From Terriglobales bacterium (lineage in GTDB: Bacteria > Acidobacteriota > Terriglobia > Terriglobales > Acidobacteriaceae): a stretch of 64,000 bases of DNA. This document shows, one piece after another, positions 22,613-29,258 of the stretch. A program made the translations under genes and the position numbers. Positions within the stretch are counted from its first letter, which is position 1; the number at the start of each line of letters is the position of its first letter. The stretch covers positions 62,001 through 126,000 of the forward strand of contig DASRFG010000023.1 in assembly GCA_035651655.1 (NCBI GenBank). Reading direction: 5' to 3'. A model generated the notes under the pieces. The model saw only the letters and a list, made by a program, of their open reading frames with translations. It made no database searches and had not been told where the DNA came from.

Positions 22613-25600
22613 ATGATCAAAGGATTGCTTAACCGCTGGCCGCTGATACAACAGATCAAGACTGGTGGCGATGGAACCGGTCCCGAGGCCTGGACCGAAC
22701 ACACTCACAAGCTCCGCCCTAAAACCCAAGGCGCGGAGGTGACTCGCTCGATTTGTCCTTACTGCGCGGTGGGTTGTGGGCAGCTGATTTTTCACAAAAA
22801 CGGCAAGATGATCTCGATCGAGGGCGATCCTGAGTCTCCGGTTTCTCGGGGCCATCTTTGTCCCAAGGGTGCGGACACCTTCGAGCTGCACACTCATCCC
22901 GCGCGGCTCAAGAAAGTTCGTTATCGCCGCCCATATTCCACTCAGTGGGAGGATCTCGACCTTGAAACCGCAATGGACATGGTTGCCGACCGCCTCTGGG
23001 AAAGCCGTGAGCGCACCTTTGTTGAGCGACAGGACGGCCAAGTAGTCGCGCACACCAAAGCTATTGCGCATCTTGGCGGAGCCACGCTGGACATCGAGGA
23101 AAATTACTTAATCAAGAAGCTCTTCACCGGCGGCTTGGGCATGGTGTGCCTCAGCAACCAGGCCCGAATATGACATAGCTCCACCGTGCCCGGTCTGGGC
23201 ACCTCCTTCGGACGTGGGGGCGCGACCACCGCGCAACAAGACCTCATCAACGCTGACGCGATCCTCATTATGGGATCGTCGATGGCAGAGAACCATCCGG
23301 TGGGCTTCCAGTGGGTGACGGCTGCTCGCGAACGCGGCGCCAAAATCATTCACGTTGATCCGCGGTTTAACCGCACTTCGGCAATGTCCGACATTTGGGT
23401 GCCGCTGCGCGCCGGGACCGACATTCTTTTCCTCGGCGGTCTGATTCACTACGCTCTCGAACACGGAAAGGAGTTTCGCGAATACCTGGTGCACTACACC
23501 AATGCACCCATGATCCTCCGCGAGGACTTTCGCGACACCGAAGACCTGGGCGGAGTTTTCTCCGGCTGGAATGCCCAGGAGCGGAAGTACAGCCCCGAGA
23601 CCTGGCTTTACGAAGGCGCGCCGCGCAAAGATACCGCCAGCGAGCACCCGGGCCACGCTGAGGCCGGCGGCGGACATGGCAAGGATCGTGGCGGCGAAGC
23701 GGGAGAACTCAGGGACTACCACACCGATCCCACGTTGCAGCATCCCCGCTGTGTTTACCAGGTGCTGAAAAAACATTTTTCTCGCTACACGCCGGAGATG
23801 ATCGAGCAGCACTGCGGCATTCCCAAAGACGTATTCCTGAAAACCGCAGAGACCTTCACTTCAGCCTCTGGGCCGGACAGGACAGCGGCAATCTGCTACG
23901 CGGTTGGTTGGACCCAGCATTCCAAGGGAGTGCAGATTATCCGAGCTGCTTCGGTCCTACAGCTTGTGTTGGGCAACATAGGTCGGCCGGGCGGGGGCAT
24001 CCTCGCATTGCGCGGTCACGCCTCGATACAAGGCTCCACTGACATTCCGACTCTGTACGACATTCTGCCCGGCTATCTCCCCATGCCATTCTTCGAGGCA
24101 GACTCCCACGACTTCAAGCAATACTTGAAGAAGCACAGCTCTAAGACCGGGCTCTGGGCCAATTTCGACAAATACTTCATAAGCTTGCTCAAAGCCTGGT
24201 ACGGCGACGCAGCCACCGAAAAAAACAACTGGGGCTTTGATTGGATGCCCCGCGTTACCGGCGACCACTCTCACTTCGGATACTGGCTCGACATGGCTGA
24301 TGGCAAATTGGAAGGCCTGTTCGTCATGGGCCAAAACCCAGCCGTGGGCGCGCCCAATAGTCGCCTGGAGCGCAAGGCGATGGCCAAGCTGAAGTGGCTG
24401 GTGGTGCTCGACATGGTGGAGACCGAGACCGCGTCATTCTGGAGCGACTCGCCCGAGGTAGAACGCGGCGAACTCGATCCCGAGAAAATCGGTACAGAAG
24501 TCTTCCTCTTCCCCGCTGCCGGGCAAGGCGAAAAAGATGGCACCTTCACCAACACTCAGCGCATGTTGCAGTGGCACAACAAAGCAGTCGATCCCCCCGG
24601 CGACGCCCGCAGCGACACCTGGTTTATGTACCATCTGGGCCGCCGCATAAAAGAGAAGGCTCGCAAGGATCCCCATCCGCGCAACGCTGGCTTGAACGCG
24701 CTCACCTGGGACTATCCCACTCACGGCGCGGACGCCGAACCAGATGTTGAAGCAATACTTCAAGAGATTAATGGCTGGACGGTTGCTGATCACAGGCTGC
24801 TGGAGAATTTCAAATCGCTAAAGAATGATGGTTCGACCGCCTGTGGCTGCTGGATTTACTCCGGTGTCTTCCCTAATCCCGCGGAAAACAAGGCCAACAA
24901 GCGCAAGCCCAAAGGACTGCTGGGGCACGGCTGGGGCTTCGCCTGGCCCGGTGATGTCCGCATTCTTTATAACCGCGCCTCGGCACGCCCCGACGGCAAG
25001 CCATGGAGCGAGCGCAAGAAGCTAATCTGGTGGGACGAAGAAAAGAAAAAATGGACGGGTAGCGACACGCCAGACTTCGATCTGGAAAAGCCTCCGGGTT
25101 ACAAGGGTGACCTGAAAAAGAAAACCGGTACTGAGGCTCTGGCTGGCGACAAGCCTTTCATCCTGCATCCAGATGGCACGGGTTGGATTTACGTAAGCAG
25201 CGGATTGAAAGATGGTCCACTTCCCACCCACTACGAGCCGCTTGAGTCTCCAGTGCGCAATGCCCTGTATCCCAAGCAGCAAACTGATCCGGCAGTGGAC
25301 AAGAAAGAACGCACCGATAATCCATACGCCTTCTCGCCGGGAGACGAGCGCTTTCCTTATGTTCTGACTACCTATCGACTCACCGAGCATCACACTGCCG
25401 GGGGTATGACGAGAACTCTATCGCATTTATGCGAGTTGCAGCCCGAGCTGTTTACGGAAGTCTCGCCAGAGCTGGCGGCAGAAGTCCAATTAGAACACGG
25501 AGGCTGGGCGACGATTACTACTCCGCGCGCCATTGTGCAGGCTCGCGTACTGGTCACTACACGCATGCGGCCGCTGTGGGTCGACGGACGCACCGTGCAC

Positions 25601-25801
25601 CAGGTTGGGCTGCCGTATCATTGGGGCTACAAGGGTCGGGTGAAGGGCGATATTGTGAACGACTTGATTGCAATCTCTGAAGAACCCAACGTGCGCATCA
25701 TGGAAAGTAAAGCGCTGGTGTGCAATATTGCTCCCGGCCGGCGCGCATCCGGTCCGGCCGCACTCGAACAACTGAAAGAACATCTGGCGAAACCCGCATG
25801 A
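22613..25801 (+). CDS. fdnG: Selenocysteine-containing formate dehydrogenase, catalytic subunit
   Basis: A single gene of 1062 residues with an in-frame TGA at 23171-23173 that encodes selenocysteine 187. The context SNQARI-Sec-H matches the active site of FdnG/FdoG-type enzymes. Reading as a plain stop would split it into fragments of 186 and about 872 residues. The N-terminal [4Fe-4S] site is C48-x2-C51-x3-C55-x27-C83, followed by the conserved lysine in LCPKG. The Mo/W-bisMGD-binding domains follow, and the C-terminal molybdopterin-guanine-dinucleotide domain starts near residue 900. A SECIS-like hairpin lies right after the TGA. No twin-arginine signal is visible at the N-terminus, unlike E. 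coli FdnG. It is the first gene of a three-gene operon; its stop overlaps fdnH as ATGA. Confidence 0.93.
23171..23202 (+). promoter_or_regulatory. Selenocysteine codon and bacterial SECIS hairpin in fdnG
   Basis: TGA (23171-23173), then 18 bases, then the apical loop GGTCT (23192-23196) closed by GTGCCC (23186-23191) and GGGCAC (23197-23202), a perfect 6-bp stem. As I recall it, the E. coli fdhF element has the same GGUCU loop the same distance from its UGA. SelB would bind this loop to direct Sec insertion. selA, selB and selC are not in the window. Confidence 0.9.
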
Positions 25802-26613
25802 GCATAACTGCGTTTCTCACCGATTCCACGTTGTGCATCGGCTGCAAAGCCTGCGAGGTCGCGTGCAAAGAGTGGAACGGCGTGGGCGAGGACGGCCTGA
25901 ACTGGAGCGGATTTTCCTATGACAATACCGGCGCGGTCGGCGCTTCCACCTGGCGGCATGTGAAATTTGTAGAAAACGAGCCGCAGCCTGGATTCGGCGG
26001 CAACGCCGCGGACTTAAACTCCTGGACGTTTTCTTCCGACGTGTGCAAGCACTGCGAGCAGGCTGGTTGCTTAGAAGCGTGCCCAACCGGCTCGATTGTG
26101 CGCACTGAATTCGGCGGTGTTTACGTTCAACCCGACGTGTGCAACGGCTGCTCGTACTGTGTGGTCTCTTGTCCCTTCGGCGTTATTCAGAAAAACGAGA
26201 AAGATGGACGTGCGTTCAAGTGCACCTTCTGCTATGACCGGCAAAAAGTCGGCCTCACGCCGGCGTGCGCCAAGGCGTGCCCGACTGAATCCATCAAGTT
26301 CGGCGAAATCAACGAATTACGCTTGGCTGCTCAAGGACGAGTTGAAGAGTTGCGCAGCCGCGGCATGGACGACGCTCGAATCTACGATCCGCAAGACACC
26401 AGCGTAGAAGGCATTCACGCATTCTTCATCATGCGTGGCGATCCCCGGACGTACAACCTGCCGCCGAAACCAGAGATACCCACTATCTATGCTCGCGACG
26501 GCTGGCGCGCCTCGGCCATTGGCTCAGCAATGCTGGTAGGCGGCGCACTCCTGGCATTTCTGGCGTCGCCCAAAGATAAGGGCTTCCGCAAGCGGAGAAG
26601 ATTGCTGCGATGA
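25798..26613 (+). CDS. fdnH: Formate dehydrogenase iron-sulfur subunit
   Basis: 271 residues from the ATG at 25798, which overlaps the fdnG stop (ATGA); upstream in-frame codons belong to fdnG. Four [4Fe-4S] ferredoxin-type motifs are visible: CIGCKACEVACKEW, CKHCEQAGCLEACP, CNGCSYCVVSCPFG and CTFCYDR...CAKACPT. A single hydrophobic helix near the C-terminus (SAIGSAMLVGGALLAFLAS) anchors it, as in FdnH. It relays electrons from the Sec/Mo site to the membrane subunit. The next gene again overlaps as ATGA, so the three subunits are translationally coupled. Confidence 0.93.
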   Translation: MSITAFLTDSTLCIGCKACEVACKEWNGVGEDGLNWSGFSYDNTGAVGASTWRHVKFVENEPQPGFGGNAADLNSWTFSSDVCKHCEQAGCLEACPTGSIVRTEFGGVYVQPDVCNGCSYCVVSCPFGVIQKNEKDGRAFKCTFCYDRQKVGLTPACAKACPTESIKFGEINELRLAAQGRVEELRSRGMDDARIYDPQDTSVEGIHAFFIMRGDPRTYNLPPKPEIPTIYARDGWRASAIGSAMLVGGALLAFLASPKDKGFRKRRRLLR

Positions 26614-27686
26614 GCACCGATCCCCTGCCCGAGCGCAAGCCTCCTCGCACACCTGACGCAAGCAGCGAAGCTCGCCTGCTGGAAATTCGCCGCGAAGCAG
26701 AGACCAGGGGCCGCGTAGAAGCGCCTGGTGTTCGCCTTCCCGGAGCTCCCTTCCCCAAGGCCTCGCCCGAAACCGGCTACTACGGCATTCCTATGCTGAA
26801 GCAGCCGCAGTGGAAGTGGGAGGTTCCTCTTTACTTTTTCGTCGGCGGCGCTGCGGGGTCGGCAGCGGTGATCGGCGCCGTCGCCAACTGGGTGGCGCGT
26901 GATCGCGAACTCACGCGACACGCACGCCTGATCGCAGCGGGCGGCGGCATGTTGTCCACCGGCTTGCTGATCGCGGACCTGGGCCGGCCGGAACGATTCC
27001 TCAACATGCTCAGGGTGTTCAAAAAGCAAAGTCCCATGTCGGTCGGCGCCTGGGTACTGGCGGCATTCAGCACTTTCTCAGGCGCAACCGCGTTTGCAGA
27101 ATTGCTGGGCGAGAAATTCGACTTCACGCCCGTCAGGGTGCTGGCCAATGTTTCGGAGACATTCTCCGCCGCCCTCGGTCTTCCCTTCCACAACTACACC
27201 GGCGTGTTGATCGGCGCGACCGCAATTCCAGTCTGGAATCAGAACATCAGCACGCTGCCAATACACTTTGGAATGTCCGGATTGAACTCCGCCGTCTCGA
27301 TCCTGGAGCTGCTGGGCCATCGCAACGCAGCGCTCAACGCGCTCGGAATCGGAGCGGCCGCGTTTGAAACTTGGGAGGGCTTCCACATTGAGCGACGGGG
27401 CGATCCCGTACTTCGGCCTTTGAAGCGGGGTACAAGCGGATGGATTACCCGTGTGGGCGGCGTGCTTTCCGGACCCGCGCCGCTGGCATTGCGGATTGTG
27501 GCCGCACTTAGTGGCTCACGCCAGATGCGCCGCACGGCGGCCTGGTCGAGTATTGCGGGATCGCTGCTGACTCGTTATGGATGGATGCAAGCCGGCCATG
27601 CCTCCGCGAAAAACTGGCGATTGCCGCTCGAAATCGAAGAACGCTCAGAAAAAATATCAACGATTCAGTCGTCCCCACGGGACTAG
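26610..27686 (+). CDS. nrfD: NrfD/PsrC-family membrane subunit of formate dehydrogenase
   Basis: 358 residues. A soluble N-terminal ~65 residues precede about eight hydrophobic segments. LYFFVGGAAGSAAVIG starts helix 1, and LLIADLGRPERFLNML is the NrfD-type quinone-site block. This subunit replaces the diheme cytochrome b (FdnI/FdoI) of the E. coli enzymes; NrfD proteins carry no heme and exchange electrons with quinone. It closes the operon, and a convergent mobA-ABC gene begins 60 bp later. Family assignment is firm; the direction of electron flow is inferred. Confidence 0.85.
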   Translation: MSTDPLPERKPPRTPDASSEARLLEIRREAETRGRVEAPGVRLPGAPFPKASPETGYYGIPMLKQPQWKWEVPLYFFVGGAAGSAAVIGAVANWVARDRELTRHARLIAAGGGMLSTGLLIADLGRPERFLNMLRVFKKQSPMSVGAWVLAAFSTFSGATAFAELLGEKFDFTPVRVLANVSETFSAALGLPFHNYTGVLIGATAIPVWNQNISTLPIHFGMSGLNSAVSILELLGHRNAALNALGIGAAAFETWEGFHIERRGDPVLRPLKRGTSGWITRVGGVLSGPAPLALRIVAALSGSRQMRRTAAWSSIAGSLLTRYGWMQAGHASAKNWRLPLEIEERSEKISTIQSSPRD

Positions 27687-27746: not shown

Positions 27747-29258
27747 CTAACGAGCTTCAGCCTGCGAGCATCCCTCCGGAGGTTCAGCTCGCACCTCAGC
27801 CGGTCCGCCGTCCAGATGCAATTCATCCAAGGTGAGGAACTGGCGCACGATGGGTTCATCGGACTGCTGCATATCTTTCACGGTGCCGAAAAATAACACT
27901 CTTGCCTCGTGCAGAAATACCACTCGGTCGGCCAGTTTTTTGGCAAGGCGCATGTCATGGGTGACCACGACGCTGGTCAGCTTCAACTGGTATTTGAGCT
28001 TCTGAATCAAGTCTCCCAAGAGCTGGGCCATCAGTGGATCTACCATGGTAGTGGGCTCGTCGTAGAGCACGCATTCTGGTTCTGCCGCGAGTGCGCGGGC
28101 GATGGCCACCGAGCGCTTCATGCCAGTAGAAAGATCGGACGGCAACAAGTCGCGCATCGGCTTTACCCCGACCATTTCGAGCAAACCATCCACGATTTGG
28201 TAGATCTGCTCTTCGCTCAGGTCGCCACGTTCCCGCAGGGGGAATGCCACATTCTCGCCGACGGTCAGTGAATCGAAGAGCGCTCCGTTCTGGAAAACCA
28301 TGGTGACTTTCTTCCGGATGCGTTGCAGTTCCGGCTCGGCGTAGTCGGTGATGTCTTCATAAGCGACGATTACGCGGCCAGAGTCAGGTTTGAGAAATCC
28401 CATGATGTGATGCAGCGACACCGATTTGCCCACACCGCTGCGTCCCAAGATGCAGACTGTTTCTCCAGGCAAAACTTCGAAGCTGACATCATCCAGAACG
28501 CAATTGCTGCCGAACGATTTAGATACGCTTTTGAATTCGATGTAAGGTTTGCGAGGTGCTTCGCCGCCCGAACTCTGCGGCGCAGATTCGGTCGAAGGTG
28601 AGGTTTCCGGCGGCTCGACAATACTGCTCTGGGAGTTGGATTCCACAGGTGGTTTGAGTCCTCCTAGACGCCCTCGCGCGGCCTCTAAATCGGCAGGCGT
28701 ATTCAGATTGTCGAACATTGAGGGCGAAAAGCCCAAGCCCTGAATTTCGGTATCCTCGACAATCCGTATGGGTGCCTGGGTGAACAATGAGTCAATCTTG
28801 TTTTTGCCTTGTGCAAGAGCATTCTCGGCCAAAGCCCGAAAATCCCGCCGATATACTGCGCACAGCGGTTGCAACCCACCTCCGCCACGTGGAACAGTCA
28901 CCATGCTGCCGGTGAGTCGCGCCTGGCCAATCAACCACGCCAGAAACTCCGCCTTCAGAAATGGCAAATCCACGGCAAGCACCAGGCTCAGCTCGCGATC
29001 GGTCCGGCCGAGAGCAGCATGGATTCCGCCCAGCGGCCCATGCTCCGGATATAGATCTTCAATCACTGGCCCAAACCCTGAAAACTTTTCCCTGCTGCCG
29101 ACGATGCGCACGTCGTCGCTGAGTTTGCTGCCCAGCTCGAGCATCCTGGTCAACAGGGGCCGCCGGTCGAACTCTAGAAGCGCCTTGTCGCCACCCATAC
29201 GGGAACTCTTCCCTCCCGCGAGGACGAAGACTGAGAGATCTGTATTCCTGGAATCCAC
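27747..29258 (-). CDS. mobA: Fusion of molybdenum cofactor guanylyltransferase (MobA) and MlaF-like ABC ATPase
   Basis: 503 residues, one uninterrupted frame, with a GTG start at 29258. Residues 1-198 are MobA: VLAGGKSSRMGGDKALL is the GTP-binding loop, LAVDLPF carries the metal-binding aspartate, and FDNLNTPADL is the closing motif. Residues 201-238 are a Ser/Pro/Glu-rich linker. Residues 239-480 are an ABC ATPase: Walker A GRSGVGKS (272-279), Q-loop VFQNGALFDSLTVGENVAF, signature LSTGM (376-380), Walker B CVLYDE (396-401) and switch H434. The GALFDSLTVGENVAFPL and LSTGMKRS blocks are of MlaF/Mkl type (lipid transport with MlaE and MCE proteins). No mlaE or mlaD lies beside it. MobA makes the bis-MGD cofactor required by the convergent formate dehydrogenase. 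All catalytic motifs of both halves look intact. Confidence 0.9.
   Translation of the reverse strand: MDSRNTDLSVFVLAGGKSSRMGGDKALLEFDRRPLLTRMLELGSKLSDDVRIVGSREKFSGFGPVIEDLYPEHGPLGGIHAALGRTDRELSLVLAVDLPFLKAEFLAWLIGQARLTGSMVTVPRGGGGLQPLCAVYRRDFRALAENALAQGKNKIDSLFTQAPIRIVEDTEIQGLGFSPSMFDNLNTPADLEAARGRLGGLKPPVESNSQSSIVEPPETSPSTESAPQSSGGEAPRKPYIEFKSVSKSFGSNCVLDDVSFEVLPGETVCILGRSGVGKSVSLHHIMGFLKPDSGRVIVAYEDITDYAEPELQRIRKKVTMVFQNGALFDSLTVGENVAFPLRERGDLSEEQIYQIVDGLLEMVGVKPMRDLLPSDLSTGMKRSVAIARALAAEPECVLYDEPTTMVDPLMAQLLGDLIQKLKYQLKLTSVVVTHDMRLAKKLADRVVFLHEARVLFFGTVKDMQQSDEPIVRQFLTLDELHLDGGPAEVRAEPPEGCSQAEAR

Follow-up and report, generated by a model that had tools for sequence, protein, structure and literature searches.

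What brings a molybdenum-cofactor enzyme and the ATPase of a lipid transporter together in one protein, and what could such an ATPase drive? The question is raised by a minus-strand frame in a 64,000-nucleotide stretch of a Terriglobales genome (hereafter the window), in which a MobA guanylyltransferase is joined through a linker rich in Ser, Pro and Glu to an ATPase resembling MlaF (Table 1). The host assembly has 39 contigs, 4.07 Mb and a completeness of 99.8%. We refer to the ATPase half and its orthologues as M, and to a second MlaF-like ATPase described below as E.

Pfam placed the NTP_transf_3 domain at residues 11-154 and ABC_tran at residues 255-404 of the fused protein (E values in Table 1), which bears out the earlier note on this DNA in reading MobA and an MlaF-like ATPase in a single frame. 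LAGGxSxRMG, the MobA motif, is present as well. The MobA half is the sole MobA-like match found genome-wide, and no further match to M within the genome exceeds 38% identity. Because both halves resemble orthologues in the compared loci (33-58% identity for MobA, 58-88% for the ATPase), this is not a chance open frame.

Table 1. Positions of the fused frame, its parts and the neighbouring formate dehydrogenase genes in the window.
Feature	Position	Strand	Remarks
Fused frame	27747-29258	minus	503 codons, GTG start; complete MobA, linker and complete MlaF-like ABC ATPase
MobA half, molybdenum-cofactor guanylyltransferase	28647..29258	minus	residues 1-204; PF12804, E 4e-32
LAGGKSSRMG motif of MobA half	29193-29222	minus	
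Linker, Ser/Pro/Glu-rich	28548..28646	minus	residues 205-237; no Met
MlaF-like ABC ATPase half, M type	27801..28556	minus	residues 235-486; PF00005, E 6.5e-29
Walker A GRSGVGKS of M	28422..28445	minus	near-invariant among M proteins
Non-canonical signature LSTGM of M	28119..28133	minus	LSGGM expected
Walker B and D-loop LYDEPTTMVD of M	28038..28067	minus	includes catalytic Glu
Formate dehydrogenase alpha gene	22613-25801	plus	in-frame TGA at 23171-23173, context NQARI-U-HSS
FDH-beta-like iron-sulfur protein	25720-26613	plus	after the alpha gene
NrfD-type membrane protein	26610-27686	plus	after the alpha gene

The arrangement of the two parts among relatives indicates how the fusion arose. We surveyed 100 genomes of the class, the host's own included, using the fused protein as query, and identified M in 94. 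A separate mobA lies upstream of M in 62 of these, M is fused to mobA in two (the window and G026), and no upstream mobA was found in 30, a count that includes two genomes with less than 420 bases of upstream sequence and that a very divergent mobA would escape. Among these 30 are every genome of families f2 (14) and f4 (four); in total, mobA adjoins or is fused to M in 64 of 94. The candidate ATPase start overlaps the end of mobA by four bases in 13 of the compared loci. We also read 80 named loci, taken in order of their resemblance to the fused protein and so biased towards fusions. The titles of these nearest loci are acidobacterial (Terriglobia, Acidobacteriaceae, Candidatus Sulfotelmatobacter, Candidatus Korobacter and others). 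Six carry the fusion (L391, which is G026, and L392, L398, L401, L402 and L405), 69 have mobA and M as separate neighbours, and in five no match to mobA lies upstream, in one case because too little sequence is available. Relatives do not all encode the two parts separately, which, together with evidence of a sequence error in the linker, the earlier note would have held against the fusion. L459 was considered as a further fused locus and set aside, its MobA and ATPase not being in frame. We built a tree of 103 rows chosen by hand (35 M and 42 E among them), in which the window groups with the unfused G004 and G026 with the unfused G031; since each has an unfused relative beside it, the two fusions look independent. 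The fusion is therefore derived from a two-gene mobA-M neighbourhood, and it arose more than once in a class in which the M gene lies downstream of mobA in most genomes. The earlier note was right that the frame is real but missed this recurrent origin; its suggestion that the fusion was kept because both halves work is probably correct.

We considered whether the fused frame of the window is instead a sequencing or assembly error joining adjacent genes, a matter that bears on the fusion only and not on the proposal for M and E developed below. At the start of the linker, an out-of-frame TAG and an AGGAGG (28660-28665) are clustered with codon 205, a GTG in frame with the fusion (28644-28646, 13 nt downstream of AGGAGG), so that one indel would yield two genes, and G004, to which the window lies closest in the tree, has the two genes apart. 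The fusion in the window may thus stem from a single indel, whether genuine or introduced in sequencing. Against an artefact in general, the six other fused loci carry linkers that differ in sequence, and the linker of L405 has no internal start codon. We therefore think an error improbable. The GTG and AGGAGG are possibly the leftover start of the ATPase gene, and part of the ATPase may still be made separately from this GTG. Our literature search, which left out bioRxiv preprints and took in few subscription papers, found no MobA-ATPase fusion.

We next looked for partners in the neighbourhood. The formate dehydrogenase genes are convergent with the fused frame, and the earlier note had taken their product to be the client of the MobA half. 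None of the 50 other loci compared has a counterpart of the three open reading frames, although 12 of these loci span only 2-4 kb and are too short to show one; formate dehydrogenase was accordingly rejected as a conserved partner of the fusion. The alpha subunit itself is probably a selenoprotein, judging from its reading frame: its NCBIfam score rises from 1326 bits for the open reading frame after the TGA to 1608 bits with selenocysteine (cut-off, 1400). Rfam gave no RNA family at gathering score between 20 and 31 kb of the window, and no tRNA-Sec was found within the window. A selA gene for L-seryl-tRNA(Sec) selenium transferase lies elsewhere in the genome (L053:4551-6047, plus strand), some 3.6 kb away from the single MCE gene described below, and its presence fits the use of selenocysteine.

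Across the 51 compared loci, the commonest downstream families are riboflavin synthase (24), RibD (22) and an SRP-type GTPase (16), which are on the opposite strand in the one annotated example. No ABC permease recurs beside M in these 51 loci. In two loci (L069 and L090), M is followed by a gene that by eye resembles amino-acid permeases. In three f2 loci (L085-L087), a protein of 115-187 amino acids other than MobA is encoded upstream of M; that of L086 (8536-9099, plus strand) is acidic, and the one f2 upstream protein tested had no Pfam match. The link between MobA and M looks like operon neighbourhood, and the role of MobA in the fusion looks most simply incidental. Our results speak neither for nor against the membrane tethering of MobA that the earlier note had suggested.

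The genome nevertheless encodes both a permease and an MCE protein. A genome-wide search found one MlaE (PF02405, contig C2) and one MlaD/MCE gene (PF02470, contig C7). The earlier note had remarked on the lack of permease and MCE genes beside the frame and proposed looking for mlaE, mlaD and a second stand-alone MlaF elsewhere; the only copies of the first two are indeed on other contigs, and a second MlaF-like ATPase gene, E, directly follows MlaE on C2. What escaped the earlier reading is that this distant MlaE comes with an ATPase whose motifs are complementary to those of M. In the window genome, M has a catalytic Glu (LYDEPT) but the signature LSTGM, whereas E has an intact LSGGM but reads LLYDSPTGGLD, with Ser in place of the catalytic Glu. 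Neither subunit combines LSGGM with the Glu.

Both proteins resemble MlaF, although to different degrees. The best NCBIfam family of M is MlaF (183.9 bits, below the equivalog cut-off of 441), and its three best PDB sequence matches (7d06, 6z5u and 6xbd) are Mla complexes. E scores 146.4 bits against the same family, again below the 441-bit cut-off; MlaF is not its best family, and its best PDB sequence match is Rv1281c rather than MlaF. Modelled as single chains, M (pLDDT 90.2) and E (pLDDT 92.0) gave as top PDB folds 6xbd, 6xgy and 6xgz for M and 6xbd and 6xgz for E, the best match of both being the MlaF chain 6xbd_I. M is therefore nearest to MlaF by fold and sequence, E by fold but not by sequence. 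One segment of E exceeds its counterpart in M by about 23 residues, and the C-terminal tail of E extends a median of 1 residue beyond the QFL column.

The complementary motifs recur throughout the class. In M, the catalytic Glu and the switch His are each present in 94 of 94 proteins, and the third signature position, where the first Gly of LSGG is expected, is Thr in 91, Val in two and masked in one, that is, Thr or Val in all 93 that are readable. MlaE matches occur in 96 of the 100 genomes, and in 91 genomes we read E close to MlaE. These E proteins have LSGGM in 91 of 91, Ser (82) or Glu (9) at the Glu position, and His (89) or Gln (2; G048 and G098) at the switch position. Five further E genes all have Ser: those of G052, G019 and G071, and also those of G084 and G091, which do not adjoin MlaE. 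G095 yielded no match to MlaE and no M, and E was not found in G035, G072, G073 and G164 at an E value of 1e-55. By comparison, the canonical ATPases of a second MlaE-type system have Glu and SGG in 14 of 14. In the 86 genomes with both proteins, mean entropy across Walker A is 0.08 in M versus 0.84 in E; LSGGM and the Walker A Lys, Q-loop Gln and D-loop GLDP of E are invariant, while the last residue of the M signature varies. This is the pattern expected if one site, formed by Walker A/B of M and the signature of E, were a consensus site and the other relaxed.

Natural variation in the presence of M provides a comparison. In family f9, a search at E 1e-40 recovered M from none of 12 genomes, and E keeps Glu in nine of nine. 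The nine Glu-bearing E proteins of the class survey come from f9 (two), f4 (four) and f10 (three), and the seven genomes of the latter two families retain Glu in E despite having M. Conversely, E with Ser occurs in three genomes in which M was not found (completeness: G002, 84%; G007, 89%; G051, 70%). Outside the class, in genomes picked by hand rather than sampled at random, 25 E-type genes read beside MlaE have Glu (21), Ala (2) or Asp (2), and six of them have LSGGQ; two further E genes, of G139 and G160, have Glu and Asp, respectively, the match in G160 crossing one stop. All five outside genomes with Ala (2) or Asp (3) in E have an M-type gene, at a locus without mlaE. Fifteen M-type genes were read outside the class: all have the Glu and 13 lack SGG, the exceptions being G152 (ISGGV) and G174 (ISGGT), although E has Asp in both. 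E keeps Glu in nine of these 15 genomes. Four genomes (G382, G283, G276 and G380) were not counted as lacking M, as one match was read in each and a weaker one could be missed.

In the tree, from which four of the 15 outside M genes (G174, G266, G139 and G164) are absent, a single branch sets off M (100/98) and another E (100/100), and the two are weakly sisters (85/59). Ser in E arises within the class after f10 splits off, and Ala and Asp arise elsewhere. Given these separate places in the tree, Glu was lost at least three times, always in lineages with M. The association is suggestive of a tie between loss of Glu in E and the presence of M, the events being too few for statistical proof. 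We also compared distance matrices by mirror-tree. The M-E correlation was 0.888 (59 genomes) versus 0.668 for M-MobA, but LptB, the ABC ATPase of another system, scored alike as a control (M-LptB 0.883 versus M-E 0.879 in 44 genomes); we therefore draw nothing from this method about coevolution of M and E and do not use it in support of their pairing.

Based on these observations, we hypothesize that M and E probably pair on MlaE as an asymmetric, heterodimeric MlaF-type motor split between two genes. Judged by their motifs, the complementary defects follow the pattern seen in heterodimeric ABC motors in which one of the two sites is degenerate. M would be one protomer, and its partner E the product of the gene right after the sole MlaE permease on another contig. 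Walker A/B of M, with its Glu, would face the intact LSGGM of E to form the hydrolysing site; Walker A/B of E, with Ser, would face LSTGM of M in a degenerate site at which ATP is bound but hardly hydrolysed. The pair would drive MlaE, and presumably also the lone MCE protein, in lipid transport at the envelope, and MobA would act independently on its cofactor. That E is still used is suggested by its intact LSGGM and nucleotide-binding residues. Several findings count against the pairing. The complementary loss of Glu and signature seen in the window genome is missing from f4, f10 and nine outside genomes, where E keeps Glu in the presence of M and could still be a homodimer; it is incomplete in G152 and G174, whose M keeps SGG; and G002, G007 and G051 have E with Ser although no M was found. 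Moreover, no locus read has the M and E genes adjacent, and the best sequence match of E is Rv1281c.

Alternatively, a homodimer of M could serve MlaE or another permease, its altered signature being tolerated, with E as a regulatory or dying paralogue. M was not found beside an MlaE in the loci read, nor were the M and E genes ever seen side by side, so that position does not fix the partner of M; the closest pair seen, a single weak case, is in G031 (L071), where mobA-M and mlaE-E are about 3 kb apart. The mirror-tree does not single out E, and the two distant M proteins with SGG also fit this alternative. However, the invariant motifs of E in the 86 paired genomes are unlike those of a dying gene, E adjoins MlaE in 91 genomes, and the window genome has a single MlaE. 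We consider an M homodimer unlikely. Slightly less likely still is that E alone forms the MlaF homodimer despite its Ser, with M serving some other function linked to MobA or molybdate: such a role would fit the 64 of 94 class genomes in which mobA adjoins or is fused to M, but in the other 30, including all of f2 and f4, no mobA was found there, the best sequence and fold matches of M are MlaF chains, and passages of PMC7367683 report that E. coli MlaF E170Q fails to rescue, from which a homodimer of E with Ser should not power MlaE.

We thus favor the pairing of M with E, and lean somewhat towards its fuller form, a split, heterodimeric, one-site MCE/Mla ATPase with subunits encoded apart, in which each transporter of the fused genomes would carry a MobA domain, a stoichiometric coupling. 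Our literature search, of the scope given above, found no heterodimeric MlaF. If the proposal is correct, one-site ATP hydrolysis, known from TAP and TM287/288, also powers an MCE lipid transporter, and the orphan ATPase M of 94 of 100 class genomes gains a likely role. The genomes would then display possible steps in the origin of such a motor, from no M, to M with Glu in E, to replacement of Glu by Ser, Ala or Asp, and why degenerate ATP sites evolve would become testable on stand-alone ATPase subunits.

Degenerate sites are known from other heterodimeric ABC proteins, CFTR among them. The exporters TM287/288, TAP and MsRv1273c/72c have one active and one degenerate ATP site, which in TM287/288 has Asp in Walker B and a signature deviating from LSGGQ, according to passages of PMC5216877, PMC12038006 and PMC4242082. 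These exporters carry their own transmembrane domains, whereas M and E would be separate MlaF-type subunits on MlaE. The MlaF of MlaFEDB (E. coli, P. aeruginosa and A. baumannii) is like M by sequence and fold and like E by fold, and it shares with E the LSGGM and a gene beside MlaE. In E. coli, one MlaF gene provides both Glu and LSGGM, which here are split over two unlinked genes. E further differs from E. coli MlaF in its longer segment and in having hardly any C-terminal tail; deletion of the C-terminal extension of E. coli MlaF fails to rescue, as reported in part of PMC7367683. Mycobacterial Mce1 is described in passages of PMC9882608 as an asymmetric MCE transporter, with a heterodimeric YrbE1A/YrbE1B permease and a homodimer of MceG, an ATPase thought to be common to several MCE systems. 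In Mce1, then, the permease is a heterodimer and the ATPase a homodimer; the proposed M-E system would be the reverse.
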